DNA from: a virus
IMG/VR virus record: IMGVR_UViG_3300042691_014395
Span: 1 to 24,160 of that record
Strand: one strand, 5' to 3'
Length of the DNA: 24,160 bases
The number at the start of each line of letters is the position of its first letter. The first letter of the stretch is position 1. Position numbers and translations under genes: made by a program. A model generated the notes under the pieces. It was not told where the DNA came from. It did no database searches and worked only from the letters and a program-made list of their open reading frames with translations. Shown here piece by piece: positions 1,773 to 21,607 of the stretch.

Positions 1773-1785
1773 ACCCAAAGTTGCC
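1773..1785 (-). repeat. Start-associated motif copy (GGCAACTTTGGGT)
   Basis: The motif ends one base before the ATG at 1772. It is one of the copies at close spacing: 13 nt from the first motif base to the start codon. Confidence 0.7.
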
Positions 1786-1798
1786 TGCCGCCACAGGC

Positions 1799-2200
1799 TC
1801 AATCCACGATCTTCTCTGGGTTGGCCTGGATGTCCACGCGCATCTGCGCCCGTGGCCCAACACCCTGCGGCACATTGATGCTGATCGCATTGCTGCCGGG
1901 ATAGGCCCACAGCAGGCGGCCAGCCACCTCCTGCAAGCTCACGCCCTCATCAGTCCACTGCACCAGGTACAGCGTCCAGCGCGTGAAAGCGTGCTCCTTG
2001 CTGTACTGGCGGATCGGCACCAGCTCAGGGTCGCGCACGATCACGCATTCCAGCCCCGTCACGGTGGTGCCTGCCGGCAGGCTTTCACCGGTGGCGCGAA
2101 CGCTGATCGCTGGTGTTGTGGCCCCATTGGCCAGCCTGTAGACACCGAGCACGTCCACCAGCGTGGTTTCCAGCTCAGTTCGTAGCGTCAGCACGTTCAT
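1799..2200 (-). CDS. Conserved-looking tail-module protein, possible tail terminator
   Basis: 133 residues, alternating helix and strand: an N-terminal helix (NVLTLRTELETTLVDVLGVYRLANG), a beta-rich core (TPAISVRATGES, TGLECVIVRDPEL, HAFTRWTLYLVQW) and a second helix (GVSLQEVAGRLLWAYPG). Size and order of elements are reminiscent of phage tail-terminator/minor tail U-type proteins, but I recognise no diagnostic motif and offer this only as a possibility. The start at 2200 lies 26 bases inside the end of the preceding frame (2175) and directly behind a motif copy (GGCAACCTCGGGGC). That supports both the start and independent initiation. Confidence 0.7.
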   Translation of the reverse strand: MNVLTLRTELETTLVDVLGVYRLANGATTPAISVRATGESLPAGTTVTGLECVIVRDPELVPIRQYSKEHAFTRWTLYLVQWTDEGVSLQEVAGRLLWAYPGSNAISINVPQGVGPRAQMRVDIQANPEKIVD

Positions 2201-2852
2201 GCCCCGAGGTTGCCCCCGAGACCAGCAACAACCCGGCTTCTAGCCAACCCGCCAGTGGTCGCTTCGGCACCTGCACCTCATAGGTGGCAAGGCTGCGGTC
2301 TATGTCCCTCAGCACGAAATCACCGTGAGCGCAGCCGGTTGTCATCACCAGGCCGCCACGGATGTTGCGTCCCTCCCAGCTGGGGGCCAGCACCCACACC
2401 CGTCCGTCATCACTGCGCAGGGCGCGGATGCTCGGCACCTTGGCGCTTTCGCTGGCGCTGGCCAGAACGGCACGCCACGCTACCAGCAGCACAGGCGGCG
2501 CCATGCCCTCATGCCGCAGCGCCAAGGCCACAGCAGCCACCTCGGGTGATAGCTGCGCCTTCTGCTGCTCTTGCTCGCGAAACAGCGCAAAATCGGCGGG
2601 CGAGAAGGCTTTGCTTTTGTTGGGGTCGCGATTGATGTTGGCGGTTAATGCCGCAAGGTTGGCAACGGGCAGCTCAGCCAGCGCCATTTCCTCGCGCTTG
2701 AGGGTCTGCAGTGCCTTCCAGGCCGTCAGCACCGTCACCCGCAGTTCGCGGCTGTAGGTGCGCCGCTGGAACTGACCGGGAAAGCCTCGCGCTAGTTCCC
2801 AGAAGAGCGCCGCCCAGTCCGTTTGTGGCCGGTCGGTGTGACCGGCTGCGGC
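2175..2852 (-). CDS. Tail assembly chaperone, C-terminal part reached by -1 frameshift
   Basis: This frame continues the upstream chaperone ORF after a -1 slip at 2852-2858. Joined to the first 173 residues of that ORF it would give a 398-residue product. The first 38 codons before the earliest listed start (GTG 2738) read as good protein (TDWAALFWELARGFPGQF, then RRTYSRELR), so the true coding region extends upstream of any conventional start. The remainder is partly helical (LTAWKALQTLKREEMALAELPV) with a beta-rich C-terminal half. The architecture, a short product plus a rare extended product, is that of lambda gpG/gpGT tail assembly chaperones. The position differs from the usual one, being far downstream of the tape measure. 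An alternative is independent initiation at GTG 2738. Confidence 0.75.
   Translation of the reverse strand, partial: AAAGHTDRPQTDWAALFWELARGFPGQFQRRTYSRELRVTVLTAWKALQTLKREEMALAELPVANLAALTANINRDPNKSKAFSPADFALFREQEQQKAQLSPEVAAVALALRHEGMAPPVLLVAWRAVLASASESAKVPSIRALRSDDGRVWVLAPSWEGRNIRGGLVMTTGCAHGDFVLRDIDRSLATYEVQVPKRPLAGWLEAGLLLVSGATSGHERADATN
2204..2214 (-). repeat. Start-associated motif copy (GGCAACCTCGG)
   Basis: The motif lies 14 nt (first base to start codon) upstream of the ATG at 2200. Here it sits inside the coding end of the preceding frame, so sequence conservation is kept in spite of the overlapping gene. Confidence 0.65.
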
Positions 2853-3370
2853 TTTCCCAATTCTTCCTCGCTTGGTGGTGTACTGGGCAGCTCCTCGACT
2901 GCCTGCTCATCCTGCGCCAGCTGCCAGAGGCCATCAAACAAGGGCTTGTCCATCTTGCGCGTGTCATCCAGCGTCCAGGCCGGCAGGTTGCAGCGGCTGC
3001 GCACCAAGGCCGTGACGGTGGCCTCCAGGTTGGCCTGACCGGCTTTGGCATAGACGCGGGCCACCTCGGCAATCCGCTCGGCATGGCGCACGCGAATCAA
3101 ATCCGCCTCGGGCTCCAGCGGGCGGCCGGCAATCGCGTTTTCAATCAGCTGGAACGCTTCTGTCAGGCTGATGGATTCCTCCTTGGCAATGGCATCGGCG
3201 ATCTGCGCACCACGCACAAAGGCGCTCTGCTCCTGCGCCAGCAGCTCAGAAATGGTGGCGCTTTCGCCGACTGTCAAACCACCGCGCACCTGCACCTCAA
3301 GCACGCCCACTTGCTCGTTGCCGATCTGGCGCGTGGTGCGTGGCGCAGGTGGCGTGATGAACGGAAGCAT
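2792..3370 (-). CDS. Tail assembly chaperone, zero-frame product
   Basis: 192 residues. It is mostly helical after a short beta-containing N-terminus (residues 15-32). Helices include ESATISELLAQEQSAFVRGA, SLTEAFQLIENAIAG and the region ADLIRVRHAERIAEVARVY. The acidic tail (LPSTPPSEEELGK) leads into the slippery site. After the site the zero frame adds only 19 basic, disordered residues before stopping, as expected for the abundant short form of a gpG-like chaperone. Its ATG overlaps the stop of the 42-residue ORF as TGATG. Family assignment rests on the frameshift architecture, size and helical content, not on a recognised sequence signature. Confidence 0.78.
   Translation of the reverse strand: MLPFITPPAPRTTRQIGNEQVGVLEVQVRGGLTVGESATISELLAQEQSAFVRGAQIADAIAKEESISLTEAFQLIENAIAGRPLEPEADLIRVRHAERIAEVARVYAKAGQANLEATVTALVRSRCNLPAWTLDDTRKMDKPLFDGLWQLAQDEQAVEELPSTPPSEEELGKPQPVTPTGHKRTGRRSSGN
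2828..2858 (-). promoter_or_regulatory. Programmed -1 ribosomal frameshift signal
   Basis: The slippery heptamer G GGA AAG (2858-2852) is in the zero frame of the upstream ORF. It is the same heptamer as in phage lambda G-GT. A 5-nt spacer (CCGCA) follows, then a perfect 7-bp stem GCCGGTC/GACCGGC with a 5-nt loop ACACC (2846-2828). Slipping back one base takes ribosomes exactly into the frame of the 2175 ORF, which is open from here on. Heptamer, spacer, hairpin and target frame all agree. Confidence 0.88.
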
Positions 3371-3498
3371 CAGCGCTTGACGAGTTGTTGCACCAGCTTA
3401 CGGTCTGCAGCTTTACGCAGAAACGCATAGCGATTGGCCTGGATCTGTGCTTTGGCGCGGGCGATGAGTTGCTTGGCTGCCACCTGCTGGGGATTCAT
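3370..3498 (-). CDS. 42-residue basic protein, related to N-terminus of the 733-residue protein
   Basis: A small ORF reading MNPQQVAAKQLIARAKAQIQ at its start, then ANRYAFLRKAADRKLVQQLVKR. It is coupled on both sides: the start overlaps the upstream stop as ATGA (3498-3495), and the stop overlaps the next ATG as TGATG (3372-3368). Ten lysines or arginines and a predicted helical character suggest a small assembly or nucleic-acid-contacting factor, but I recognise no family. Residues 14-24 (RAKAQIQANRY) match RAKAQTQANRF near the N-terminus of the preceding 733-residue protein. Confidence 0.65.
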   Translation of the reverse strand: MNPQQVAAKQLIARAKAQIQANRYAFLRKAADRKLVQQLVKR

Positions 3499-5696: not shown

Positions 5697-6100
5697 CAGT
5701 CATCCTGCCGCAGACTGATGCGATACGTTTGCGTCTGGCCTGCTACCAGCGTGACATTTGGTGATTCAACGATGATGCTGTGCAGATAGGTTTCACCATT
5801 GATGTAGATGACCACCGTGTCATAGCTGTAGCCCGTGCTGGTGGCTGTAAACGCTGCGTCAATGTCAGGCATGACATAAGCAGCTTCTGTACCGTCGTAG
5901 CTGCCCGTTGCGATGGTGGCGGTGAAGCGGCTGTAGCCGTTGCCGCTCTTCTCCACGCTTTGCCAGTTGGCAACGGTGCTTTGCGCCGTATAGCCCGTCG
6001 CGCCAACAGAGCACAGCATCACCTTGAGCGTTTTGCCCTCGTATGCCAGGGCGGCAACTCGCTGCAGCTCTTTCTGGCTGATAGTGATTGTTTGCGCCAT
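5696..6100 (-). CDS. Small beta-rich tail protein
   Basis: 134 residues. A short N-terminal helix (ISQKELQRVAALAYEG) is followed by beta strands: KTLKVMLCSVGATGY, SVEKSGNGYSRFTATIATGSYDG, YSYDTVVIYINGETYLHSIIVES and TLVAGQTQTYRISLRQDD. The general pattern (KVMLC... SGNGYSR... VIYINGE) resembles short virion proteins encoded beside phage fibre genes, in which I also place the neighbour at 6102. It starts 1 nt after the preceding stop (TGATATG). No enzyme motif is present. It is probably a tail-tip or fibre-base component, with the function unproven. Confidence 0.72.
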   Translation of the reverse strand: MAQTITISQKELQRVAALAYEGKTLKVMLCSVGATGYTAQSTVANWQSVEKSGNGYSRFTATIATGSYDGTEAAYVMPDIDAAFTATSTGYSYDTVVIYINGETYLHSIIVESPNVTLVAGQTQTYRISLRQDD

Positions 6101-6101
6101 A

Positions 6102-6533
6102 TCAAGCCACCGTGAAGGTGCAGATGCCTGCGGCGTCCCAGATCACTTTGAAATCAGTGGTTGCCGGTGCTGTCTTGCTGCCGTCAAAATCAATGAACGC
6201 GACCGGCGGGTCATCAGCGTCTGTGTCGTTGTAGAGGATGCCAAACGCAGCGCTCAGCGAGCCGCCGCTAGCAGTCCAGGTGACATCATCCGCGTCAAGC
6301 TTGGCATCGTTGGTGGTGACAGTGGTGACGGCCACGTTGGCCAGCGTGGCGCCGCCTGTGGTGTAGCCGTTGCCGCTGGCCACCTCGGTGCCACCGGTTG
6401 CGGCAAGAGTGGTGTGCGCCGCGCTGAAGGTGGCTGCCGTCAGCAGCTTCAACTTGTAGGTATCCCCAACGGCATTGGCGCCAGAGGCAAACCGGGCAGC
6501 CGTGTGGTTGTAAAGGCTGATGGTGATCGCCAT
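6102..6533 (-). CDS. Small beta-rich tail-associated protein
   Basis: 143 residues. The sequence MAITISLYNHTAARFASGAN, then TYKLKLLTAATFSAAHTT, EVASGNGYTTGGATLANVAV, LDADDVTWTASGGSLSAAFG, ILYNDTDADDPPVAFIDFDG and KVIWDAAGICTFTVA, has the succession of motifs (SGNGYTTGG, DADDVTWTASGGS, IDFDGSKTAP) that I associate with a widespread family of small phage structural proteins found near tail fibres. The start at 6533 lies 28 nt from a strong motif copy that also contains the stop of the upstream gene. The role within the tail tip is not known. Confidence 0.78.
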   Translation of the reverse strand: MAITISLYNHTAARFASGANAVGDTYKLKLLTAATFSAAHTTLAATGGTEVASGNGYTTGGATLANVAVTTVTTNDAKLDADDVTWTASGGSLSAAFGILYNDTDADDPPVAFIDFDGSKTAPATTDFKVIWDAAGICTFTVA

Positions 6534-6550
6534 GCTGCTGCTTGCGTTGA

Positions 6551-6561
6551 CCTAACTTGCC
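6551..6561 (-). repeat. Start-associated motif copy (GGCAAGTTAGG)
   Basis: It contains the TAG stop of the 6552 gene and lies 28 nt upstream of the ATG at 6533. It is identical in its 11 bases to the copy at 15134-15144. Confidence 0.75.
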
Positions 6562-6962: not shown

Positions 6963-6964
6963 GG

Positions 6965-7492: not shown

Positions 7493-7860
7493 CAGCTGAT
7501 GTCCTCATACGAAATCACCAGCTCCAGGTCGTTGGCAGCGCTGGCCTGTGCGCGGAGGCTGTGGCCTTCCTCTAGGTAGATGTATGCCTCGCGGGTCACC
7601 AGCACCTGAGTGGCATCCGCTGGCACGGCGATGGTCTTGCCGATGGCAAAGCCGGTGGTGCCGTTGTAGTGCTCCAGGCTGATGTCAGCCGCTGCGGCGC
7701 CATCCACGTTGGCGCAGTACACCGAGTTGATTTTCAGCACCTTGCCGCTGCTGGCGCCATTGCTCAGCGCTGCAGCCATCGAGGTGGTCACGGCATAACC
7801 CACGGTCTTGCCGACGACCGTCGTGACCGAGCTGCCGCTCTTGATGTTGGGGGCTGCCAT
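7492..7860 (-). CDS. Small conserved phage virion protein
   Basis: 122 residues: MAAPNIKSGSSVTTVVGKTV, then GYAVTTSMAAALSNGASSGKV, LKINSVYCANVDGAAAADIS, IAVPADATQVLVTREAYIYLEEGHSLRAQASAANDLELVISYEDIS. The order 'SNGASSGKVLKIN ... YCANVDG ... IYLEEG-x-SLR ... A-x-A-x-x-DLE-x-V-SYE-[ED]-IS' is shared with small structural proteins that I know from marine cyanophages and other tailed phages. The fold is probably a beta-sandwich. It lies between the tail hub and the discoidin protein, so it is probably a tail-tip or fibre-base component. The ATG follows the preceding stop by 29 nt, including a degenerate motif copy. Confidence 0.8.
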   Translation of the reverse strand: MAAPNIKSGSSVTTVVGKTVGYAVTTSMAAALSNGASSGKVLKINSVYCANVDGAAAADISLEHYNGTTGFAIGKTIAVPADATQVLVTREAYIYLEEGHSLRAQASAANDLELVISYEDIS

Positions 7861-7875
7861 GGCCTGACAACGTGT

Positions 7876-7887
7876 CCCTAGCTTTCC
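7876..7887 (-). repeat. Degenerate start-associated motif copy (GGAAAGCTAGGG)
   Basis: It lies 27 nt upstream of the ATG at 7860, directly after the stop of the hub gene. Together with following bases (GACACG) it parallels the copy at 15134 (GGGCACACG). Confidence 0.45.
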
Positions 7888-7889
7888 GG

Positions 7890-10520: not shown

Positions 10521-11284
10521 CAGATGATCTGCAGCGCTGTCAGGGAGACGCTGTACCGGGTGCTCTTGGCGCCGCCGCTGATGATCACCTCAGCCGTTGC
10601 GCTGGGCGGCGAGATTGGGAACCAGCTGGTGCTGCTCGGTATAGCGGCAATCGTCTCGTCGTACCAAGACAACACGTCGTCGTAGCTGCCCGTGGTGAGA
10701 TAGCCCTCGATCTGGCGCACCTTGTGCGCCGCCAGTGCACCGGTCACGTAGCTCACGCCCGTTGCGGTCAGCGACACGCTGGGGCCGTCCTGGCGGGTCA
10801 GCATCGGCTTGGTCAAGGTGACAATCGGTGAGGTGCCTGTAGCCCGCGTCAGGGTGACCGTGCCAAGGCTGGGCACCGTTGCCTCAGAGTTCTGGCGGCT
10901 TTTCTCCTGCTCCCGCAGCAGCACGGCCAGCGCTTGCGCCGCATCCACCAACGTGGCATTGGCACTGATGTAGGGGCCAGCTTGCTCCCCACTGGGGGGC
11001 TCAGTGAACCAGCAGGCCAAGCCGCTGATGCTCAGGCCGTTGCTGCTGGCGATACTGACGCTGACGGTGGTGCCAACGCTGGCGCTGCTGAGCGTGTCGG
11101 CATCGGTGAGGCGCGAGTTGCGCCAGGTGCCGTACTCGCTCACCAAGGCTTGCCACTGAGCGCTGGTCAGCAACCCATTGACGCGGAAGGTGCGAGCGGT
11201 CAGGCCGGTGCGGGCATCGCCTTCGTAGCCAAACGGCTGCGCCGTGAGAACGCTGGTGCTGAAGCTGCCAATGGTGATAGTCAT
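10520..11284 (-). CDS. Distal-tail-type protein (Dit candidate)
   Basis: 254 residues between tape measure and hub. The beginning MTITIGSFSTSVLTAQPFGY, then EGDARTGLTARTFRVNGLLT and AQWQALVSEYGTWRNSRLTD, matches the beginning of distal tail/minor tail proteins that sit under the tape measure, where a strand pair is followed by a 'GLLT-x-x-x-W-x-x-L' helix. The central helix AAQALAVLLREQEKSRQNSE separates two beta-rich halves; the second contains GPSVSLTATGVSY and TRYSVSLTALQII. The start overlaps the tape measure stop by 4 nt (ATGA). Function is inferred from order and general architecture. Confidence 0.75.
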   Translation of the reverse strand: MTITIGSFSTSVLTAQPFGYEGDARTGLTARTFRVNGLLTSAQWQALVSEYGTWRNSRLTDADTLSSASVGTTVSVSIASSNGLSISGLACWFTEPPSGEQAGPYISANATLVDAAQALAVLLREQEKSRQNSEATVPSLGTVTLTRATGTSPIVTLTKPMLTRQDGPSVSLTATGVSYVTGALAAHKVRQIEGYLTTGSYDDVLSWYDETIAAIPSSTSWFPISPPSATAEVIISGGAKSTRYSVSLTALQII

Positions 11285-13416
11285 GACAGCGCTCCATTGA
11301 CAGCATTGAGCACGTCACCGCTGGCGCTGCCGCCGGGAACGTTGACGTTGACCGCCCAGGACTTGGCCGCCAGCTCGCGGGTTGCCGCAAGCAGCTCCCG
11401 GTTGACACCCACCAGGTCTGCGGTGTTCTTGTTCAGCGCTTCCTGCAGGTTGGCAACGTTGGTGTTGGCGGCCTTTTCACGATCGACTTGCTGAATGAAC
11501 TGCCGCACGGATTCGACAACATCACTCGTCGAACCGCTGAACTCTGGCGCCTGCGCACCGGTGATCCGAGTGAAGTCAGCCTGCGCATCACGGAACAGCG
11601 GCAGGATGGAGCGCAACGTTTCCAGTCCGCGCCGATCGCGCTGCTCTGGATTCAGGAACTGATTCAACCCCTTGGGGTCATTGCGAATGCCGGCCAGCTC
11701 CAGCGTTGCCTGCTTGAGGTCATCGCGCAGCTGCTTGCCTGCAGTCTTCAGTGCTGTGGCGCCTTCGATCAGCTTGAGCCGCACCTCTTCTGATGCGACG
11801 ACCTGCTGATCCACCAGCTTTTGCATGTCAGGGCCGGTGTCTTTGCCCTGCAGGCGCAGCGCATCAATCTGGGCACCGATCTGAATCACCTGATTTTTGG
11901 CCGCCTGGACGCCAGCCTCGATTTCCTGGCGCTGCTGGATCGTCTGACGCACGACGCCAGCTTCGGCAGCGGCCAGCTCATTGGCTGCGGCAATGCGCTG
12001 CTTGACGGTCTGCAGGGCCAGCTGGGCCTCAACCCGCTGCTGCTGTTGCTGGGCCAGCAATTTAAGATCGGGCGGCTGGGGCTTGCTGGACAACTCGCCG
12101 GATGGCGTGGTCGCGGCTCCAGGCTTGACCGTTGGCGCATTCAATGGCTGCGACTTGGCCCAGTCGTTCCATTTGCGCTCGACTGTCTTGTATTCAGCCT
12201 CAATGAATTTCTGAAATCCGCCAGCTTTGATGATGTCTTGAGCAAACTTAAGGGGGTTGCTAACGCCGCGAATGGACAGCTCTGCATTCTTGGCAATCTG
12301 AGCGCCAAGAGCGGAAGCTGCCAAAAAGGCTCTGCGGATTGCCAGCTCAACCAGCAAAAAGTCTCTGATTAGCTTTTTGCCGTCGATGTTGTTGAGAATG
12401 TCAGAGACAAACTTTAACCCATCCGCAATGTTGTTGACAATGATGGAGGCCCATTCACGGGTTGCCGCTGCGATTGTGCTGATCAGCTCAGGGTTGCCGG
12501 CCAATGCCTCAGAAAATGCCTTGGCTTGTGCGGTGAGCGGTGCAAACAGCTGTTCAATGGATGACAGGCTTGGAAACGCCTGGTCAAAGACTTGGTTGAC
12601 AACCCCGAAGGCTGCCGACAATGCCGGGGCGATAGATGACGCAAAGCCCCCGAACAGTTGGCCGAAGTTGTCAAAGATGTTGTTGAACTGAACGTCTACC
12701 GCTTGACCAGCAAGCTGCAACGCAGTCATGTCGCCAGTGGCCAGCACCAGCGCCTTGTTGAAGTCGTTGGTGCTGATCTGACCTTTGGACATTGCGTCCT
12801 GCAATGCGGTGCCACTTTTGCCGGTGACCTGGGCCAGCTCCTGCGTCAGATCAACGCCAGCCTCCAGAAGCTGCAAGTTTTCTTCGCCCTGCAGGCGGCC
12901 TTTGGCATAGACCTGCGCGTAGATCAACGCCAGGCGTTCCAGCGGCTGACCGGACTGCGCCGCAATGGCGCCCACGCGGCTGATCGTGCCTTGCAGCTGG
13001 TTGACATTGACGCCAACTGCCAGGAAACGCTGGGCAGCAGTGAGAATCTCCTCGTTTTTGAACGGAGTGGTCTTGCTCAGGGTGAAGAGATCCTGCCGCA
13101 GCTGCTTGGCGGCCTCAGCTGAACCGGTCAGGCCAGTGAAGGCGGCATTGAGCTTTTGAATGCTGCCGGCAGTTTGCGTTGCTGCAAAGCCAATTCCTGC
13201 AATGGCTGCACCAACGCTTGCGATTGCAAGCGCTGCAGGGGCAGCAGCTGCTCCAATAGCAGACAGAAGGCCTGCTGCACTCCCAGCAGACTTTGCGCTG
13301 CCGCCGATGTCTTCAAGGGCTTTATCTGCGTTCGATCTGGCGCGATTCAGTCCGGCATTGAACTGCCGATCGTCAACGGTCAGCGTCAGTACAGCCTGCC
13401 CAAGCTGATCCGCCAC
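11281..13416 (-). CDS. Tail tape measure protein
   Basis: 711 residues from GTG 13416 (the frame is closed just upstream by TGA). Residues 1-35 (LTLTVDDRQFNAGLNRARSNADKAL) are the typical beginning of tape measure proteins. A strongly hydrophobic Ala/Gly segment follows at residues 48-80. Then comes the conserved tape-measure block with NAAFTGLTGSAEAAKQLRQD, TTPFKNEEILTAAQRFLAVG and GEENLQLLEAGVDLTQELAQ. The C-terminal half includes a long coiled coil (QQQQRVEAQLALQTVKQRIA and onward). A 711-residue ruler is short, consistent with a tail near 100 nm by the usual 1.5 angstrom per residue. It is divergently oriented to the plus-strand gene at 13464. Confidence 0.93.
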   Translation of the reverse strand: MADQLGQAVLTLTVDDRQFNAGLNRARSNADKALEDIGGSAKSAGSAAGLLSAIGAAAAPAALAIASVGAAIAGIGFAATQTAGSIQKLNAAFTGLTGSAEAAKQLRQDLFTLSKTTPFKNEEILTAAQRFLAVGVNVNQLQGTISRVGAIAAQSGQPLERLALIYAQVYAKGRLQGEENLQLLEAGVDLTQELAQVTGKSGTALQDAMSKGQISTNDFNKALVLATGDMTALQLAGQAVDVQFNNIFDNFGQLFGGFASSIAPALSAAFGVVNQVFDQAFPSLSSIEQLFAPLTAQAKAFSEALAGNPELISTIAAATREWASIIVNNIADGLKFVSDILNNIDGKKLIRDFLLVELAIRRAFLAASALGAQIAKNAELSIRGVSNPLKFAQDIIKAGGFQKFIEAEYKTVERKWNDWAKSQPLNAPTVKPGAATTPSGELSSKPQPPDLKLLAQQQQQRVEAQLALQTVKQRIAAANELAAAEAGVVRQTIQQRQEIEAGVQAAKNQVIQIGAQIDALRLQGKDTGPDMQKLVDQQVVASEEVRLKLIEGATALKTAGKQLRDDLKQATLELAGIRNDPKGLNQFLNPEQRDRRGLETLRSILPLFRDAQADFTRITGAQAPEFSGSTSDVVESVRQFIQQVDREKAANTNVANLQEALNKNTADLVGVNRELLAATRELAAKSWAVNVNVPGGSASGDVLNAVNGALS

Positions 13417-13434: not shown

Positions 13435-13445
13435 CCAAGGTTGCC
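13435..13445 (-). repeat. Start-associated motif copy (GGCAACCTTGG)
   Basis: It lies 29 nt upstream of the tape measure GTG at 13416. It is one arm of an inverted pair with the plus-strand copy at 13452-13461. Confidence 0.75.
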
Positions 13446-13451
13446 GCCGCA

Positions 13452-13461
13452 GCAACCTAGG
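13452..13461 (+). repeat. Start-associated motif copy on plus strand (GCAACCTAGG)
   Basis: This is the only strong plus-strand copy, and it precedes a plus-strand gene: GCAACCTAGGCC directly abuts ATG 13464. The motif thus follows the direction of the gene rather than the direction of the operon. Confidence 0.75.
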
Positions 13462-13463: not shown

Positions 13464-13859
13464 ATGACAAGCGCTCTAGCCGGTCTCGCCAACGCCACAG
13501 CCACCTTCAATGTGGCCACCGTTGGCACCACCACCGACCCTGACACCGGCAACGTTCTGCCAGCCACAGAAGCGCTCACCGTCAGCCTGTACCTGCGCCA
13601 GGGCGGCAGCAGCAGCGCCAACCTGCCGGGCGTTGACGCTGACACCGAGGTGCTGGAGGGTTATGCGGTGAGCCCGCAGGCCCTGGATGCACGGATCAAG
13701 CCAGGCACCACCGGCACCCTCAACTTCGCCGGCCAAGGCAGCGCCGACTGCGAGGTCATCAGCAGCCGCTTTCCTTACGGCAGCACCGGCACAATCGGCA
13801 GCACGCTGCAACAGGTGCTCGGCGACAAGATCCGCATTGCCCGCTACCTGCAGAACTGA
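13464..13859 (+). CDS. Probable head-closure/head-tail joining protein (reverse orientation)
   Basis: 131 residues on the plus strand. It has a beta-rich beginning (ATATFNVATVGTTTDPDTGN), a middle LTVSLYLRQGGSSSANLPGVD, and the end ADCEVISSRFPYGSTGTIGS, TLQQVLGDKIRIARYLQN. Size, beta content and the adjacent gp10-like gene fit a head-closure (gp16/Phage_H_T_join-like) protein that connects the portal assembly to the tail. I recognise no diagnostic motif, so the name rests on context. The stop overlaps the next ATG as TGATG. It and its partner are the only genes in the window on the plus strand, although connector genes are normally co-directional with head and tail genes. Confidence 0.75.
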   Translation: MTSALAGLANATATFNVATVGTTTDPDTGNVLPATEALTVSLYLRQGGSSSANLPGVDADTEVLEGYAVSPQALDARIKPGTTGTLNFAGQGSADCEVISSRFPYGSTGTIGSTLQQVLGDKIRIARYLQN

Positions 13860-14305
13860 TGACCGTTCAGGTCAAGGCCACCTACAAGCTGACCGGCTGG
13901 AACAGCACCCAGCTCAAGCTGCGGATCCCGGTCATCCTCACCGGCTACGGCAAGGTGATGGACCAGCAGCTCAAAGAGGAAATCCAGTCGCCACAGTTCA
14001 ACTGGCCGCGTGAAACACGCCGCCGCAATGGCTCCCGCGTCAGCAGCCCGCGTGACATCGTGGACTTGGGCAAGTTCCTGCGCTCACAACGGCGCGATCG
14101 CCCCAGCGCCACACAGCTGCGTTTCACGTGGGATGTCAAAAGCGACAGCGGTTTTTCCTATGCGCCGCTGATCCTGACCGGCTACACCACCAGGCGCGGC
14201 ACCATTGTTCCCGGTCGCAACTGGATCCAGCCAGCACTGGAAGCCAGGCCGCTTGATCGCTTCTTTGCCGCCGAATGGCGCCGACTTGAAAGCAGCGGAC
14301 TGTAG
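13859..14305 (+). CDS. HK97 gp10-like neck/tail-connector protein (reverse orientation)
   Basis: 148 residues. The basic N-terminal half includes ILTGYGKVMDQQLKEEIQSP and NWPRETRRRNGSRVSSPRDI. It is followed by VDLGKFLRSQRRDRPSATQL, RFTWDVKSDSGFSYAPLILT, GYTTRRGTIVPGRNWIQPAL and DRFFAAEWRR. The order of a helix at the start, a 'YAPL-x-x-x-G' segment, then 'GRNWI-x-PAL' followed by a helix, is that of gp10/minor-capsid-type neck proteins ('YAxxVHxG ... R-x-F-x-x-PAL'). A role in the connector between head and tail is likely. It is translationally coupled to the previous gene (TGATG). The stop lies next to the terminator of the opposite strand. Confidence 0.8.
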   Translation: MTVQVKATYKLTGWNSTQLKLRIPVILTGYGKVMDQQLKEEIQSPQFNWPRETRRRNGSRVSSPRDIVDLGKFLRSQRRDRPSATQLRFTWDVKSDSGFSYAPLILTGYTTRRGTIVPGRNWIQPALEARPLDRFFAAEWRRLESSGL

Positions 14306-14310
14306 ACAAG

Positions 14311-14339
14311 AAAAAAGCGGTCGCCTCCACAACGACCGC
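14311..14339 (-). terminator. Intrinsic terminator for minus-strand transcription
   Basis: In minus-strand sense, GCGGTCG and CGACCGC form a perfect 7-bp GC-rich stem with a 9-nt loop (TTGTGGAGG), followed by six T then CTT. It lies 28 nt after the stop of the major tail protein gene and separates it from the opposite-strand gene end at 14305. A second small hairpin, GACTC-3 nt-GAGTC (14346-14358), lies just upstream of it. On the plus strand there is no T-run after the stem, so it should act only on the minus-strand transcript. Confidence 0.85.
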
Positions 14340-14356
14340 CCCCTCGACTCACCGAG

Positions 14357-14366
14357 TCTAAGTTGC
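14357..14366 (-). repeat. Motif copy at the right end of the inverted block (GCAACTTAGA)
   Basis: It immediately follows the stop of the major tail protein gene, in minus orientation, with no minus-strand gene start downstream within 900 bp. It forms an inverted pair with the plus copy at 13452, and the pair brackets the two flipped genes. Confidence 0.6.
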
Positions 14367-15113
14367 TCAGCTCACGGTTGCCACAGTCAGCACCGGCAGC
14401 GTATCGCCAGTGCCAAAGACGGTGGGGTCGTCGATCGTCAACACATCGCCCACCTTGTAGTTCTCGCCAGAGGCCACGATGGTTGCGGTCTGGATCACAC
14501 CAGAACCATTCACTGTGATCGTGACGGTGGCATTCTTGCCCGAGCCATTGCCTTGTGCCGGAGTGGTGCTGACCAGCGGAACGCCAGTCTGAGCGGACAG
14601 GCCAAGGCCGCCGTTGGTGACCGTCAGCGTGGCAATGCCGTCACCCTGCTGGTAGTTCTTGGGTGCGCCATAGCCCACCAGGTCAAAGGTCACAGCCGCC
14701 ACTGAGCCAGCTTCCAGGCTCTCAGACCAGTTGCCCACAAACGCTACTCCGGCATCGACTTGCGCATCGGTGTTGCCAGCACCCAGCAGCGGCAGCTGAC
14801 GGTACCACTGAACCGCCACGTTGTTGGCCGAGGTCTGCGCTGCACGCTTGAGGATCAGGTAGCCCGTGGAGGTCGGGTCCAGGTTCAGCGCGGCACTGAT
14901 CGTATAGCTGTTGCCGGTAACAATGCTGGACTTGAAGCCGAAGTCGGTGCTGTAGTCCAGCACATCCTGCGTGTCCGAGCTGACCGAGATTGAAGCATTG
15001 GTCAGGCTCAGCACCTCCGTCATGGTGCTGGAGCTTGTCGGAGCGCTGGAAGCGGTGGTGCCAGCCTTGACCCAGAACCTGAGATCAAGAGCGGCGAAAT
15101 AGGTTCCGGCCAC
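14367..15113 (-). CDS. Major tail tube protein with extra C-terminal domain
   Basis: 248 residues from GTG 15113. The N-terminal two thirds (AALDLRFWVKAGTTASSAPT, EVLSLTNASISVSSDTQDVL, DYSTDFGFKSSIVTGNSYTI, WSESLEAGSVAAVTFDLVGYG) has the succession of strands expected for a siphoviral tail tube protein. Its location after the adaptor genes and before the tape measure supports this. Residues about 165-248 form a second, beta-rich, Gly/Thr-rich domain with KNATVTITVNGSGVIQTATI and ASGENYKVGDVLTI. This 'G-x-x-Y-x-VGDVLTI' pattern is common in appended domains of phage structural proteins. A surface-decorating tail domain is inferred. A strong motif copy lies 31 nt from the start, and an intrinsic terminator follows the gene. 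Confidence 0.82.
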   Translation of the reverse strand: MAGTYFAALDLRFWVKAGTTASSAPTSSSTMTEVLSLTNASISVSSDTQDVLDYSTDFGFKSSIVTGNSYTISAALNLDPTSTGYLILKRAAQTSANNVAVQWYRQLPLLGAGNTDAQVDAGVAFVGNWSESLEAGSVAAVTFDLVGYGAPKNYQQGDGIATLTVTNGGLGLSAQTGVPLVSTTPAQGNGSGKNATVTITVNGSGVIQTATIVASGENYKVGDVLTIDDPTVFGTGDTLPVLTVATVS

Positions 15114-15133
15114 GTGGGTGTTGTTGCGTGTGC

Positions 15134-15144
15134 CCTAACTTGCC
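15134..15144 (-). repeat. Start-associated motif copy (GGCAAGTTAGG)
   Basis: It contains the TAG stop of the sigma-like gene and lies 31 nt from the GTG of the major tail protein at 15113. Confidence 0.75.
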
Positions 15145-15722
15145 GCCAGCCGCTCTTCCTCTGCTTCCAGCACCTCCCACGGTGTCGGGATCGGCGAGAC
15201 GTGCAGGTCGAAGCCTTTGACGTCATGCGCAATGCCGGCGGTGGCCAGCAGCGCATCCTTCAGGTCGGTCTTGCTGCAGCTCAACTCGCGGCACACGGCT
15301 GCAGACTCCCAGCCCAGCGCCATCAGCTTGCGGGCCTGGTTGCCGAGCAGCCGCGCCTTGTGCGTCGCCTTGATTGTCCAGTTGTGGCTGCGCAGGTAAT
15401 GCAGCACCTCACCTTGCGCAAAGGCCCAGAAGATGGTGCTCAGCCTTCCGCGGTCCGGGTTCCAGGCCTTGCACGCCTTGATGAAGGCCATGTCCACGCA
15501 GGAAAAGATGTCTTCGCGTGCAATGCAGTGCCCGTACTTGCGTGCCAGCTTGCCACCGAAGCTCTTGATCAGGCCAATGTGCTCGGCATACATGCGCCCG
15601 ATGCGGCGCTGCTCAGAGCGGGTCAGCGGGTTGGCTAGATACGGTTCAGCACGTCGCTTAAGCGGTGCAACTGCAGCAACCGCAAACAGATCAAGCTGGC
15701 ATTCAGCGACGGGCATTTTCAC
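15135..15722 (-). CDS. Sigma-70-like RNA polymerase sigma factor
   Basis: 195 residues. Residues about 40-115 match sigma-70 region 2: GRMYAEHIGLIKSFGGKLAR, KYG, then AREDIFSCVDMAFIKACKAW, NPDRGRLSTIFWAFAQGEVL and HYLRSHN. The 'F-x-KA-x-x-x-[WF]-[ND]-P-[DE]-RG-x-[LF]-ST-x-x-x-x-x-x-x-x-[EI]-x-x-[YF]-[LI]-R' pattern is characteristic. Residues about 130-160 (ARKLMALGWESAAVCRELSC, SKTDLKDALLAT) form a region-4-like helix-turn-helix. The C-terminal 35 residues are acidic. It should bind host core RNA polymerase and redirect it, plausibly to late phage promoters. It starts at GTG 15722 or ATG 15716. Its location between adaptor and tail tube genes is unusual, since such regulators commonly sit outside the structural module. 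Confidence 0.85.
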   Translation of the reverse strand: MKMPVAECQLDLFAVAAVAPLKRRAEPYLANPLTRSEQRRIGRMYAEHIGLIKSFGGKLARKYGHCIAREDIFSCVDMAFIKACKAWNPDRGRLSTIFWAFAQGEVLHYLRSHNWTIKATHKARLLGNQARKLMALGWESAAVCRELSCSKTDLKDALLATAGIAHDVKGFDLHVSPIPTPWEVLEAEEERLAAS

Positions 15723-15723
15723 A

Positions 15724-15735
15724 CTCTAACTTCGC
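15724..15735 (-). repeat. Degenerate start-associated motif copy (GCGAAGTTAGAG)
   Basis: It contains the TAG stop of the adaptor gene and lies 13 nt from GTG 15722 (19 nt from ATG 15716) of the sigma-like gene. Confidence 0.5.
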
Positions 15736-16283
15736 AACACCGGCACTGATCGGGCGCTGGAATTGGAGCCGCTCAGGCACAAGCAACCGAGCACTTGCTT
15801 CAAGTGCGGCACCACGTTCAAAGCGTTCTTGGCTTCTGCCTGGCCGGCCTGGTTGAACTCCACGTCGATCACGTCCACCCGCGCTCGCTTCAGGTTGGCA
15901 TTGGGGATGCCAGGGATCAGTTCACTGCTACCAGCGCCGGTGCCGCTGAGCACGTTGCTGTCACCCAGCAGGTATTCCGCCAGGTCAAAGGCGGCTTGCT
16001 TGATCGGCTGCGGAATCTCGCTGCTGGTGAAGCTCCAGTCGCCGCATTCAGCATCACTGCGCGGCCAGAGCAGCGCCTGCGTTGTGGAAGCCTTGCTGCC
16101 CACGTATTGCAGCTCGTCAAGGTAGCGGGTCGCCATGATCAGCGCCCGGCCCTTGTTGTCAGTGGTTGCCGTGGCCCAGTTCAGGGTGCCGAGGTACAGG
16201 TTGGCCAGATCATCAGCAGCGGCCACCGACAGGTAGCTGTTGGCATTGCTGGCCCCGGCAGTGGCGACAACGGTGACGGGCAT
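15726..16283 (-). CDS. Head-tail adaptor (DnaT-like/gp6-type connector)
   Basis: 185 residues. The pattern ASNANSYLSVAAADDLANLY, then LNWATATTDNKGRALIMATR, YLDELQYVGSKASTTQALLW and PRSDAECGDWSFTSSEIPQP, IKQAAFDLAEYLL, is that of the phage family often labelled 'DnaT-like ssDNA-binding' but placed as a head-tail connector ('NSYVS-x-x-EAD-x-Y ... ALI-x-AT-x-x-LD ... Q-x-L-x-WPR'). It follows the minor head protein, the normal place for the first adaptor ring. The last 25 residues (LGCLCLSGSNSSARSVPVLRS) are unlike the rest. The start lies 28 nt from a strong motif copy. Confidence 0.85.
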   Translation of the reverse strand: MPVTVVATAGASNANSYLSVAAADDLANLYLGTLNWATATTDNKGRALIMATRYLDELQYVGSKASTTQALLWPRSDAECGDWSFTSSEIPQPIKQAAFDLAEYLLGDSNVLSGTGAGSSELIPGIPNANLKRARVDVIDVEFNQAGQAEAKNALNVVPHLKQVLGCLCLSGSNSSARSVPVLRS

Positions 16284-16300
16284 GGCGGCGCACTCTTGGC

Positions 16301-16311
16301 CTTAAGTTGCC
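16301..16311 (-). repeat. Start-associated motif copy (GGCAACTTAAG)
   Basis: It contains the TAA stop of the minor head protein gene (CCACCGGCAACTTAAGG) and lies 28 nt upstream of the ATG at 16283. The CCACCGGCAA prefix is shared with the copy at 6551. Confidence 0.75.
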
Positions 16312-18684: not shown

Positions 18685-19229
18685 AGGCCAGCCTCCAGTG
18701 TCACTACCCGCAGGCTGTGAGCAGTGCCGCTGGCTGGGGTGTACGCGCCACGGGTTTCAAGTTCGGCATAAAGGATGTTGCTGCCGGCTGCCAGTTTGAT
18801 TGCCGTGCCGCAGTAGTCAGATTGCGTGAACAACGTGCTGCCCAGGTCTTGCGGCGCTGAAAGATCGACAAACCCCGCATAGGCACCCACTTCGCCGCTC
18901 ACCAGATCAAACGCGGCGTTGTCCAGAATCGCGGTGGGAATGGCGGTGTAGAAGTGCAGCCGGAATCCGGCCATGCCGCTGGGCACCGTGGTGCTTGCAA
19001 TCATCAGGCGCACCGACTGCACTAGCACGTAGCCACCGCTGGGGCCGATGCTGGGCAGGGTGATGATGGCGCTGCCCGCATTGGCGGGCGTGACGCTATC
19101 AGCCACACCAATCACATCACCGGCGGTGTAGGCCGTGGTATTGCTGGGGCGCGTGATGGTGACCGCAGCGCGATAAGCGACACCGCTTGCTTCTACTGCA
19201 GCCTCGCCGCCGCCCAGAAAGGTGGCCAT
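18681..19229 (-). CDS. Virion beta-sandwich protein in head-fibre cassette
   Basis: 182 residues. AAVTITRPSNTTAYTAGDVI, then GVADSVTPANAGSAIITLPS, IGPSGGYVLVQSVRLMIAST, AGFRLHFYTAIPTAILDNAA, FDLVSGEVGAYAGFVDLSAP and GSTLFTQSDYCGTAIKLAAG, SNILYAELETRGAYTPASGT follow the pattern of a common phage structural family ('RP-x-[DN]TTAY-x-AGDV-[IV]-G ... F-x-L-x-[FL]-x-x-x-x-P'). It probably sits on the capsid together with the LamG-like fibre. The start overlaps the previous stop as TGATG, and the stop overlaps the fibre start as ATGA. Confidence 0.8.
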   Translation of the reverse strand: MATFLGGGEAAVEASGVAYRAAVTITRPSNTTAYTAGDVIGVADSVTPANAGSAIITLPSIGPSGGYVLVQSVRLMIASTTVPSGMAGFRLHFYTAIPTAILDNAAFDLVSGEVGAYAGFVDLSAPQDLGSTLFTQSDYCGTAIKLAAGSNILYAELETRGAYTPASGTAHSLRVVTLEAGL

Positions 19230-19384
19230 CAGTCTTCTGTCACCTGGATTTCCTTAGGTTGCCGACCACGGCGGCGAGGCCTGGCCTCTTCCTTTGGCGA
19301 GGTCTGCTCAACAGCAAAAGAGGCCGCCTCCGCAGAGGCAGCCTCCAGCTGTTCACGCAGTCGCCTGAACGCGAACAATCCCAC
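19229..19384 (-). CDS. 51-residue charged protein
   Basis: A small ORF with GTG start at 19384, 3 nt after the preceding stop: MGLFAFRRLREQLEAASAEA, ASFAVEQTSPKEEARPRRRG, RQPKEIQVTED. The N-terminus is an amphipathic helix and the C-terminus is disordered and rich in Arg, Lys and Glu (RPRRRGRQPKE). It fills the otherwise empty space between decoration and fibre genes exactly, and its stop overlaps the next ATG as TGATG, which supports translation. I recognise no family. Its coding sequence contains a motif copy. Confidence 0.65.
   Translation of the reverse strand: MGLFAFRRLREQLEAASAEAASFAVEQTSPKEEARPRRRGRQPKEIQVTED
19252..19263 (-). repeat. Start-associated motif copy (GGCAACCTAAGG)
   Basis: It lies inside the end of the 51-residue gene, 34 nt from the next ATG at 19229. 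The AAGGA at its end could serve as a Shine-Dalgarno-like element, although it is far from the start. Confidence 0.65.
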
Positions 19385-19387
19385 TGA

Positions 19388-19768
19388 TCACTTCCGGTAG
19401 AAGATGACTGTGGAGCTGGTCGCCACACGGCCAACAAAGGTGGCCGAGCTGGCTGCTGCCACGGTGGCAGAGCCGGTCACGGTCACGCTTGCACCACCAG
19501 CAAAGGTGATGGCGTGAGTGGCGCCTGCGAGGTTGACGATCGTCACCTCAAAGCACTGGCCGACCATGCCACTGTCGCCCAGCTCGCTGATGATCTCAGC
19601 AGCGGTGGCGGTGGTGTAGGTGCGGCCCGTGGATGGGGTCACCGTGATCAGGCTCTCAACGCTCTGGGCAGCGGTGAGGGTGGTGTCAGCGTTGCTGCCG
19701 GCCAGCAGCACTCGGCCCTGGGTAGCGCGGCCGAAGTTGGCCTGCTCCAGTTCAAAGATGGATGCCAT
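19388..19768 (-). CDS. Capsid decoration-type protein
   Basis: 126 residues directly downstream of the major capsid gene. After a short N-terminal segment (MASIFELEQANFGRATQGRV) it is beta-rich: SVESLITVTPSTGRTYTTAT, AAEIISELGDSGMVGQCFEV, TIVNLAGATHAITFAGGASV, TVTGSATVAAASSATFVGRV, ATSSTVIFYRK. The pattern 'AAEIISEL...VG-x-x-FE-x-x-IVN-x-x-xx-x-x-[IL]-x-x-xx-G...A-x-F-x-[GV]R' is common among small virion proteins of phages that infect cyanobacteria and others. Location and size suggest that it decorates the capsid surface. A purine-rich TGAGGTAA precedes the ATG. Confidence 0.78.
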   Translation of the reverse strand: MASIFELEQANFGRATQGRVLLAGSNADTTLTAAQSVESLITVTPSTGRTYTTATAAEIISELGDSGMVGQCFEVTIVNLAGATHAITFAGGASVTVTGSATVAAASSATFVGRVATSSTVIFYRK

Positions 19769-19779
19769 CGTTAGTTACC

Positions 19780-20805
19780 TCAGAAGTTGGGGTTGGAAAC
19801 GATGCTGACGACACCAATGTTCTTGGTCTCGTAGATCTGCGTCCAGTTGCTGGCCGCTTCCAGCGTGGCGCGGGAAGGGTTCACGCCACCAGAGGTGTAG
19901 GACACACCGAGGGGGTGATAGAGGTTGTGCCAATGCACCGACATGGCATCGCTCAGAGCGAGGATGTCACGGTCGGTCTCGGTCACAAGGCCCGACTGGG
20001 TGCCGGAAGCCATGGCACCGGGGGTGAACAGGTACGAGGCGAAGTTGGTGCCATCGTTGTTCACGTCGTCAGAGACGATCACGCGCATCCCCATGTAGAA
20101 GGGAACGGTGAGGTCGCTGGCAAAGGCTGCGGCCATGCTGCCGCCAAACACCGGGGCAATGCCGGTGGTGGCTTCAGTGCCGCCGCCACGTGCCTCATCG
20201 TTGGTCACGTAGTCGATCGCCTTGCGCTCCACGAGGTCGTAGAAGCACTTGCTGTGCATCGCAATGACGCTCAGCTTTTCGCCTTGATCGCCAAGAGCAG
20301 CGCGGGCTTCAGCCACCTTGCCGGGGTTGAGGGTGACTGCCGTTGCGTTGGAATCAATGGCCAACGCACGCAGCGCACCGGTGGTGTTGCTGGTCAGCGG
20401 GCCAAAGACACCGCGCAGGATGGAGAACACATCCTTCTGCTGCTGGTGGCTGATGTAGTCGGCGACCTTGCGGCCAATGGCCTGCATGGGGTCGTCGCCA
20501 GCGGCCAGCGCGGCCAGGGTGCGCACTTCCCAGGCGCGGCCACGGTGCAGGACCGGGCAGATCTGCTTTTCAGCACCGATCTTGCCAGGGATCAAGCTGG
20601 TGGTGTCGCTCAGGACTTCAGCGTCGCCGCTGAGGTTGGCGGACCAGGAAGGGACGTTCACATAGTCGCCGCCTTCTGTGGCATTGAGAATGTCCAGAGG
20701 TTGGATCACGCCGCTGTTGATGAAGGCCGACCGAGTGGTGACAGCCTCGTCAACGTAGGCAGTGAACACCTCGGGGACAATGATGTCGCTCCGAAGGGTT
20801 GCCAT
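19780..20805 (-). CDS. Major capsid protein
   Basis: 341 residues. The sequence RSDIIVPEVFTAYVDEAVTT, RSAFINSGVIQPLDILNATE, GGDYVNVPSWSANLSGDAEV, then RGRAWEVRTLAALAAGDDPM and QAIGRKVADYISHQQQKDVF, SILRGVFG, has the typical layout of HK97-fold major capsid proteins of the type found with DUF4055 portals: an N-terminal arm, E-loop, a long spine helix and a P-domain. Later segments KLSVIAMHSKCFYDLVERKA and FYMGMRVIVSDDVNNDG, ASYLFTPGAMASG are equally diagnostic. Scaffold upstream and decoration protein downstream complete the capsid set. It is preceded by a 75-bp leader that may carry its own signals. Confidence 0.92.
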   Translation of the reverse strand: MATLRSDIIVPEVFTAYVDEAVTTRSAFINSGVIQPLDILNATEGGDYVNVPSWSANLSGDAEVLSDTTSLIPGKIGAEKQICPVLHRGRAWEVRTLAALAAGDDPMQAIGRKVADYISHQQQKDVFSILRGVFGPLTSNTTGALRALAIDSNATAVTLNPGKVAEARAALGDQGEKLSVIAMHSKCFYDLVERKAIDYVTNDEARGGGTEATTGIAPVFGGSMAAAFASDLTVPFYMGMRVIVSDDVNNDGTNFASYLFTPGAMASGTQSGLVTETDRDILALSDAMSVHWHNLYHPLGVSYTSGGVNPSRATLEAASNWTQIYETKNIGVVSIVSNPNF

Positions 20806-20880
20806 GATGATGGTTTAAGAGGATTGGGACGCGGCCACAGGCCTTCACGGGTCAGCACAGCCTTCCCTTACGGCTATAGA
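20806..20880 (-). promoter_or_regulatory. Leader of the major capsid gene
   Basis: This is a 75-bp non-coding gap, long for this tightly packed operon. In the minus-strand sense it contains TATAGC near the scaffold stop, two related segments (CCGTAAGGGAAGGC and CCGTGAAGGCC), the small hairpin GGCC-TGT-GGCC and a pyrimidine-rich stretch before ATG. There is no Shine-Dalgarno sequence at the usual distance. It may hold a promoter, processing site or translation enhancer for capsid protein; I cannot decide which. Confidence 0.3.
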
Positions 20881-21570
20881 TTACCGCTTGGCCTCTGATT
20901 TGAGCTTGGCGTATAGCTCGGGGTTTGTTTTGAACAGGCGGCCCTGTTCGGTGAGGTTGTAGTGCTCAGCGCTGAACGGGTTCTTGGTGCCTGATGGAAC
21001 AACCGCAGCGCTGCGACTTCCGGCCGGTGCGCCGGTGCCCTGTGGCTTGGGTGCTTTGAGCCGATACTGCGGCAGGCTGGTCTTGGCCCAGTCGTTGATT
21101 GGTGTGCGCTGATAGCCATCCACCACAACAACGGTGCCATCGGGCTCGCGTTCGATCTGCTCCGGCTTAAGGCGCAGGCGGATCACCTCGTCAGGGTCGT
21201 GAACAATGTCCGCCAGGGCAGCGACCGCAGGGCCGATCAACTTCAGCTCGCGGTTCTCAGCTTCCAGGGCATCAAGGCGCTGCTGCAGCGTGCCTTCGCG
21301 CTCGCGGTACTGCTGCTCCAGCTTCTGACGGGCTTCGCTGTAGTTGCCCTGCTGTTCCAGCTCGGTCTGCTCGGCGCGTTGCTTGAACTCCAGCAGTGCC
21401 CGCACGTCGGTGCCATCAGGCAACTCTGCTGCCATCTGCTCGTATTTGCGCAGCTTGCGCTTTTCTTCCAGCAGTTCCTTGTTCTTGCTGCGCAGCAGGT
21501 TCAGCTCAGCTTCTAGGGCCGAGGCATCAGGTGCAGACTGCTCCACAGGAGCGGTGTCGTTGTCAGGCAT
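20881..21570 (-). CDS. Capsid scaffold protein
   Basis: 229 residues from ATG 21570; a TTG start at 21588 would add 6 residues. Residues 18-105 are a long highly charged coiled coil (LEAELNLLRSKNKELLEEKR, KLRKYEQMAAEL, QRAEQTELEQQGNYSEARQK, LEQQYREREGTLQQRLDALE). A shorter folded part follows (IVHDPDEVIRLRLKPEQIER, VVVDGYQRTPINDWAKT) and then a basic C-terminus with NPFSAEHYNLTEQGRLFKTN, PELYAKLKSEAKR. This is the standard scaffold layout between portal and capsid genes. The C-terminal helix normally binds the coat protein. A strong motif copy lies 37 nt from the start. Confidence 0.9.
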   Translation of the reverse strand: MPDNDTAPVEQSAPDASALEAELNLLRSKNKELLEEKRKLRKYEQMAAELPDGTDVRALLEFKQRAEQTELEQQGNYSEARQKLEQQYREREGTLQQRLDALEAENRELKLIGPAVAALADIVHDPDEVIRLRLKPEQIEREPDGTVVVVDGYQRTPINDWAKTSLPQYRLKAPKPQGTGAPAGSRSAAVVPSGTKNPFSAEHYNLTEQGRLFKTNPELYAKLKSEAKR

Positions 21571-21596
21571 GAAGACCCACAGGGTCAAAGGTGCGG

Positions 21597-21607
21597 CCTA
21601 GGTTGCC
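21597..21607 (-). repeat. Start-associated motif copy (GGCAACCTAGG)
   Basis: It lies just after the stop of the 45-residue gene, 37 nt from the scaffold ATG. It shares CAACCTAGGCC with the plus-strand copy at 13452. Confidence 0.75.

Follow-up and report, generated by a model that had tools for sequence, protein, structure and literature searches.

What role is played by a short oriented word that recurs before the genes of a single virus? The stretch in question is the IMG/VR virus record IMGVR_UViG_3300042691_014395 (hereafter the window, which is the whole record, 24,160 bases), where a first-pass annotation had noticed an 11-bp word, GGCAASYTNRG, recurring at gene starts and had offered four roles for it: a translation element, a promoter, a repressor site or a recombination linker. 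The evidence presented here favours the promoter. The element is likely to be a -10-only, phage-specific late promoter, read by a sigma factor that the phage itself encodes in the gene at 15135-15716, which lies in the same stretch and had no part in the earlier finding.

Of the 33 genes called in the window, 31 are on the minus strand, and its portal protein shows 55% identity to that of cyanophage KBS-S-2A. For comparison, 80 related contig stretches, many of them near-identical to one another, were taken from IMG/VR; the long contigs of the family are ten (G002, G003, G005, G006, G010-G014 and G185). Gene starts were called with a simple gene caller blind to the motif, and we inferred the scaffold, tail and tape-measure labels from family kin.

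Copies of the element in the window

Eight exact copies of GGCAASYTNRG are found, all on the minus strand and at the places first reported (1775, 2204, 6551, 13435, 15134, 16301, 19253 and 21597), with none on the plus strand, and the mirrored pattern occurs on neither strand. In 500 dinucleotide shuffles the mean was 0.35 per strand and the maximum 3, and no shuffle (0/500) attained 8; permitting one mismatch gave a weaker excess, 32 matches versus 16.1 expected. The weaker copies described at 14357 (AGCAACTTAGA) and, on the plus strand, at 13451 (AGCAACCTAGG) are real, as are the weak forms at 7877 (GGAAAGCTAGG) and 23671 (GGAAACCTTGA), whereas the one at about 15725 (GCGAAGTTAGA) falls below the threshold and was left uncounted. 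This last word precedes the ATG of the sigma-like gene by 8 nt, and similar letters are present there in several relatives. The motif as originally written was too narrow: A is accepted besides C at position 3 and besides C and G at position 6, and the last two letters are poorly constrained.

The placement that had been described, at gene junctions and in the direction of the next gene, holds for ten copies, which stand 2-26 nt before called starts, and the plus-strand copy at 13451 is indeed reversed together with a reversed gene. The copy at 14357 is an exception to the rule, as it is followed by a terminator and not by a gene. The putative promoter elements and the features associated with them are the following:

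23671..23681, minus strand: weak element GGAAACCTTGA, 19 nt before the ATG at 23651, if that start is used
21597..21607, minus strand: element GGCAACCTAGG, 26 nt before the ATG at 21570 of the scaffold-like gene 20881-21570
19253..19263, minus strand: element GGCAACCTAAG, 23 nt before the ATG at 19229
16301..16311, minus strand: element GGCAACTTAAG, 17 nt before the ATG at 16283, overlapping the stop codon of the upstream gene
15135-15716, minus strand: gene encoding the sigma-like protein (193 aa) that is proposed to read the element
15134..15144, minus strand: element GGCAAGTTAGG, 20 nt before the GTG at 15113, overlapping the stop codon of the sigma-like gene
14357..14367, minus strand: weak element AGCAACTTAGA, which shares bases with the stop codon of gene 14367-15113 and precedes a terminator
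14311..14340, minus strand: hairpin with a T run, resembling an intrinsic terminator and lying downstream of the element at 14357
13451..13461, plus strand: element AGCAACCTAGG, 2 nt before the ATG at 13464 of a reversed two-gene unit, 13464-14305
13435..13445, minus strand: element GGCAACCTTGG, 18 nt before the GTG at 13416 of the tape-measure-like gene 11281-13416
7877..7887, minus strand: element GGAAAGCTAGG, 16 nt before the ATG at 7860
6551..6561, minus strand: element GGCAAGTTAGG, 17 nt before the ATG at 6533
2204..2214, minus strand: element GGCAACCTCGG, 3 nt before the ATG at 2200
1775..1785, minus strand: element GGCAACTTTGG, 2 nt before the ATG at 1772

The copies at 13435 (minus) and 13451 (plus) stand back to back, one for the tape-measure-like gene and the other for the reversed two-gene unit. 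This unit lies inside the late stretch and is ended by a convergent terminator region, and both of its genes are present in 10 of the 14 genomes compared.

Refined sequence and position of the element

Removal of near-duplicates reduced the upstream regions from 1195 to 460 in the window's family, and from 854 to 320 and from 1231 to 779 in a second and a third phage group, respectively; element sites were likewise reduced from 256 to 153, a site being kept only if a called start lay -1 to 40 nt downstream. Alignment of these 153 non-redundant sites, chosen on ten core positions, rendered the refined element c-GGMAASYTARGSCA, with the consensus c-GGMAASYTARG followed by S12, C13 and A14-A16. 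De novo counting found GCAACCTA in 38 of the 460 upstream regions versus 0.23 expected, and expectation-maximisation seeded with the word of the first-pass annotation placed a site in 124 of them. The two outcomes that would have reduced the pattern to chance or local paralogy, lack of conservation in related genomes and equal density inside genes, were not observed. The 80 loci contained 106 sense and 13 antisense matches, compared with 3 and 5 for a mirrored control, and in the ten long related contigs and the window GGMAAVYTANR was matched 64 times (2.32 per kb) in the 45 nt before starts versus 4 times (0.012 per kb) in gene interiors, with 11 matches elsewhere.

The spacing from core to start codon falls into two classes. 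Among the 153 sites, 18 are at 2 nt and two at 3 nt, none at 4-9 nt, 132 at 10-37 nt and one at -1. The empty interval would have a probability of about 7e-17 under a flat spread over 2-28 nt, a rough figure, as related genes are not independent. ATG is the start codon in 19 of the 20 genes with a spacing of 2 or 3, compared with 93 of the 132 others (Fisher p 0.026), and portal genes occur in either class, with spacings of 10 or more and, in G185, of 2. In the long-spacing class C13 and A14-A16 are anchored to the element; a YR step at positions 13-14 was found in 55 of 116 sites, compared with 35 and 24 when either of two control offsets was taken. No -35 partner was detected upstream of the 132 long-spacing sites, where no position between -45 and -6, counted from the element, carries more than 0.12 bit and weak preferences appear only within 5 bases of the GG. 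The element is thus directional and stands at a set upstream position with an initiator, as a promoter does, apart from spacing exceptions in the third group.

The distribution among junctions is also uneven: of 104 gaps of 11-60 nt between genes on the same strand, 59 contain the element, versus 7 of 111 overlapping junctions. Divergent junctions of up to 120 bp (24 in 11 sequences) have an element for both genes in 12 cases, for one gene in 3 and for none in 9, and five of these nine flank integrase (serine-recombinase) or HTH_17 genes. The twelve two-sided junctions are 42-73 bp long and are nearly filled by the elements and leaders, so that little room is left for another promoter pair. 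In G010 no near-start site occurs from 11.2 to 27.3 kb, a stretch with sigma-70, deaminase, ERF and recombinase genes, and for this reason the genes preceded by the element would be expressed late.

With respect to the terminators, 62 non-redundant hairpin-plus-T candidates included 7 with an element-like site at most 60 nt upstream (background 2.1%), five of the seven being the 14357 junction. At that junction, six readable sequence types retain the variant in three cases, doubtfully in one, and lack it in two. Element-like sites 15-19 nt upstream of terminator hairpins were seen in the window (14311-14367) and in L019, L058, L063, L065, L095 and L097; if such copies are promoters, they would give RNAs of about 50 nt.

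A sigma-like gene as the proposed reader

The gene at 15135-15716 surfaced when the gene families of motif-bearing genomes were compared with those of genomes that have no motif. Its product matched the sigma factor families of PHROG (E 9.8e-9; 5.5e-10 for the L114 orthologue), Pfam Sigma70_r2 was matched by the orthologues in L114 (24.5 bits) and L101 (24.6 bits; cut-off 24), and the family profile aligned with the solved FliA over residues 48-161 (E 7e-4). An AlphaFold2 model of moderate quality (predicted local distance difference test, pLDDT, 73; predicted template modelling score, pTM, 0.49; residues 161-174 poorly modelled) was submitted to Foldseek, where all 50 matches listed were sigma-bearing by title, and VIA-align superposed it on the N-terminal domain of SigE (8b3z) with a Z of 10.4 and 1.8-1.9 Å over 77 residues, a result that helical folds may also reach by chance. 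Homology and the predicted model support the presence of region 2, the part of a sigma factor for core binding and -10 recognition. Region 3 is probable: the profile and fold alignments with FliA and sigma-70 extend to about residues 161-169, Pfam Sigma70_r3 being unmatched. Region 4, for -35 recognition, was not detected, with no Pfam region 4 match at E 10 for the window protein and none at E 1 in seven homologues. A sigma factor devoid of region 4 would fit a promoter devoid of a -35 element.

In the mechanism that we propose, the RNA polymerase of the host, equipped with the small phage sigma, would melt the DNA at the GG.AA..TA core. Transcription would start at A14 (in ...RGSCA), with C13 before it. 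Counted from there, GG would fall near -13/-12, with AA at -10/-9 and TA at -6/-5, and no -35 element would be needed, since the sigma seems to be without region 4. A start at A14 implies that the leader length would be the spacing minus 2. With a spacing of 2, as at 13451, the first base of the transcript would be the initial A of the start codon and the mRNA would be leaderless, and the long class would have leaders of 8 nt or more; poor translation of very short leaders may explain the empty 4-9 interval. Late genes without translational coupling to a neighbour would in many cases have a copy of their own, and overlapping genes may rely on coupling.

Two other readers were considered and rejected. 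No single-subunit phage RNA polymerase was recognised by eye among the longest open reading frames, no family search having been made, and the full-length sigma-70-like gene of G010 has a distribution different from that of the motif: it was matched in G010, G003, G006, G002, partly in G005, and in the motif-less KBS-S-2A, and was not matched in G011-G014.

Co-occurrence of the sigma gene and the element

By tblastn the sigma gene was found in the window and in all ten long contigs, including copies in G012 and G013 that the family comparison had missed, and it was not found in KBS-S-2A, S-H1 and MED4-117, three genomes that are also without near-start copies of the element. Two portal kin, G209 and G391, gave neither a sigma match nor a near-start site in 10.6 and 19 kb, respectively, with 2 genes called in the latter. 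A profile search of 14 sequences agreed with these results and added distant homologues in P-SS2 (E 7.8e-13), S-CBS2, S-CRES1, S-CRES3, two second-group loci, G020 and Cr-LKS4. At a fixed threshold, near-start sites numbered 8 in the window, 12 in G010, 9 in G013, 7 in G185, 5 in S-CBS2 and, in the first 50 kb of each record, 4 in S-CRES3, 2 in P-SS2 and 2 in S-CRES1; the second-group loci had 3, 2 and 0, and KBS-S-2A, S-H1, MED4-117 and Cr-LKS4 had none. Mirrored near-start sites were 0 in all 15 sequences. Similarity of the portal alone does not explain the co-occurrence, since KBS-S-2A, a near portal relative, is without both the sigma gene and the element.

The contig of G185 (C45; L206, L210, L211) is a 44-kb phage-like contig that carries both within a cyanobacterial genome, of the same family as a Cyanobium record. 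A search of genome contigs for prophages by peptide pattern rendered none, and a profile search of 400 genomes from the G020 family gave matches in 23, the best being G185, followed by G209 and G391.

Second and third phage groups

A second group of 59 loci was fetched with L207, a 25%-identical sigma homologue of the Cyanobium record. Blind k-mer counting found GGAAAGCT, in the context GGAAAGCTAAGCCGTAA, in 20 of the 320 upstream regions versus 0.04 expected (the floor of the method). The matrix of the first family also chose 20 regions, with a spacing of 17-25 in 19 of them and of 31 in one. This group clearly carries the same element.

The third group consists of phages like P-SS2 and S-CBS2. 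In S-CBS2, S-CRES1, S-CRES3 and the first 50 kb of P-SS2 (377 genes, threshold 12) there were 15 sense sites compared with 1 mirrored and 2 antisense, and 14 of the 15 are at a spacing of 17-26. Some precede structural genes (two in S-CBS2, the tape-measure gene of S-CRES3 and ORF030 of P-SS2); the others are mostly before hypothetical genes, many of them among structural ones, and one is before the hli gene of S-CBS2. Further stretches of eight metagenomic contigs, which are among the 13 records counted whole below and some of which were read short of their ends, rendered 16 sense, 2 mirrored and 6 antisense sites for 596 genes (threshold 11). These counts point, thinly, to fewer promoters of the same type in this group.

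In the same group, host-type -10 words, TAGACT and TATACT, occur in 36 and 45 of the 779 upstream regions near the sigma gene (L285-L346) versus 0.9 and 2.3 expected, a strong enrichment; they include GGTAGA(C/A)TGG, which is common to sites before the sigma genes of S-CBS2, P-SS2, S-CRES1 and S-CRES3.

Evidence against a sigma-read promoter

Several observations weigh against the proposal. Regarding the protein, its own Sigma70_r2 score, 19.8 bits, does not reach the cut-off, Sigma70_r2 is unmatched at E 1 in the homologue of G185, and the best Foldseek match has an E of 0.0016, with none attaining 0.001. The co-occurrence of sigma gene and element is a correlation, and Cr-LKS4, in spite of a sigma profile match (E 1.4e-6), showed no site near a start over the 50 kb covered. 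Regarding the sites, the portal and capsid genes of the window have no copy, the copy at 14357 and a few others stand before terminators, two near-start sites of G011 (12225 and 14763) fall within a helicase stretch, and gapped genes without the element are as poor in Shine-Dalgarno-like words as those with it (24%, n=107). In the third group, loci around the sigma gene gave 7 sense, 4 mirrored and 1 antisense sites for the 779 regions, a negative result perhaps due to flanking genes that are mostly early; whole records gave 17 matches versus 34 mirrored (13 records); G420 is without any site; and sites at 4, 6 and 9 nt break the spacing rule, so that the empty 4-9 interval holds for the window's family only.

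Alternative explanations

Some of the data would be accounted for by a word acting in the RNA, to which the ribosome would be drawn at uncoupled genes instead of to a Shine-Dalgarno sequence. Shine-Dalgarno-like words are found before 46% of overlapping genes (n=106) and 24% of element genes (n=96), with 17% in an interior control (n=327), although the gapped genes without the element are just as poor in them, and nearly all sites are within 40 nt of a start codon, though such a start was a condition of their selection. Two spacing classes, at 2-3 nt and at 10 nt or more, misfit a single position of the ribosome, and neither the copies before terminators nor the co-occurrence with a sigma gene is in accordance with a role in translation. 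Pairing with rRNA was no better for the motif than for reversed sites (best mean 8.62 versus 8.69 and 8.30 versus 8.69 of 11), a weak test, given that the rRNA loci came from the GFB01 record and may include contaminant DNA. We consider a translation element improbable. Two related ideas were dropped: an RNA hairpin of GGC..GCC flanks, visible by eye in some sites and not in others (uncounted), and a stop-codon element, as the core TAA/TAG is the stop of the upstream gene in some sites only.

The first-pass annotation had also seen a resemblance to the start-associated sequences and stoperators of mycobacteriophages. The start-associated sequences of cluster K are usually found 3-7 bp from starts, include AGGAG and occupy the genome half with non-structural genes (PMC3203893), and they share with the present element the character of a short directional word before gene starts that is absent or rare in the host. 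The likeness fails on spacing, which here is 2-3 or 10-37 nt, and on the consensus, which has no AGGAG. As to stoperators, a directional site for a phage repressor that silences late genes in lysogens would suit a family that is probably temperate in part, as serine recombinases match in many of its members (G011, G015, G005, G006, G003, G002, G010 and L061), and directional short intergenic sites recall the stoperators of L5, which are named in PMC3203893. An operator has, however, no reason to avoid the interval of 4-9 nt from start codons; the copies of divergent pairs are separated by a variable 1 to 10 bp, unlike a fixed dimer site; and the divergent junctions of 42-73 bp would still require promoters. 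This possibility appears a shade less probable than that of a translation element.

Least probable of the three, and very improbable in itself, is an RNA cleavage site that would cut a late polycistronic message into single-gene mRNAs: copies at gene ends and before terminators would suit it, and an RNA end near position 14 would likewise account for the spacing classes, but divergent genes 42-73 bp apart require promoters between them. An origin of the element in the host was rejected, as GGMAACCTAGG occurs 2, 0 and 2 times versus 8, 0 and 4 times for the mirrored word in three cyanobacterial records of 3.5, 2.3 and 3.8 Mb, titled Cyanobium, Synechococcus and uncultured cyanobacterium.

A separate word, CCTGTGG, stands on the minus strand of the window at 20833-20843 and 21574-21586, and in relatives, before scaffold-like and capsid genes, being present in 24 of the 460 upstream regions versus 0.86 expected. 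Its flanks differ between sites yet match each other (GACCC-TGT-GGGTC, GAGCC-TGT-GGCTC), and it may be a small RNA hairpin.

Comparison with known systems

A phage sigma that reads -10-only promoters has a precedent. The late promoters of T4, TATAAATA, are -10-only promoters located before many late genes and are read by gp55, a sigma without the -35-reading domain. The system proposed for the window would be analogous in its -10-only late promoters and in a sigma without such a domain, although the sequence of the T4 promoters differs from GGMAASYTARG.

In cyanobacteria, the group 3 sigma factor SigF has been associated with type 3 promoters, composed of TAGGC (-32) and GGTAA (-12) (PMC2758279). 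The letters of GGTAA resemble the phage GGMAA, whose placement at -13 to -9 would depend on the start at A14, and the homologues of the phage sigma in S-CBS2 and the S-CRES phages are annotated as SigF. The phage sites differ in that no TAGGC-like -32 element was found in the 132 long-spacing sites, and the phage protein in that no region 4 was found in it. ORF003 of P-SS2 has been described as a group 3 sigma for which a particular regulon was expected, with no target sequence named in the accessible passages (PMC2784084). One of the two near-start elements in the 50 kb of P-SS2 that were read precedes ORF030, the major capsid protein in PMC2784084 and a "minor head protein" in the GenBank record.

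No publication that names the element was recognised in the literature searched, which mostly did not cover subscription papers. The kind of system, a phage sigma with -10-only late promoters, is known; what is new here is this version of the sequence, the phage groups in which it occurs, and the two-class spacing in the window's family.

Implications for cyanobacterial siphoviruses

It is a plausible, if slightly doubtful, extension of these results that a class of cyanobacterial siphoviruses transcribes its late genes with a minimal sigma (regions 2-3) from compact -10-only promoters set before single late genes, and that in the window's family transcription starts only on the AUG or at least 8 nt upstream, the position of the promoter setting the mode of translation; our estimate for this wider reading was lowered because of the third-group sites that break the spacing rule. 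The proposed late promoter and its sigma would explain how a group of freshwater cyanobacterial viruses turns on its late genes, and the element would give a concrete candidate target to the phage sigma factors that have been annotated in cyanosiphoviruses since at least 2009. It also predicts where late transcripts begin in many environmental phages that are still unannotated. Within the window's family, the empty spacing of 4-9 nt would provide a natural test of leaderless versus leadered translation in cyanobacteria.

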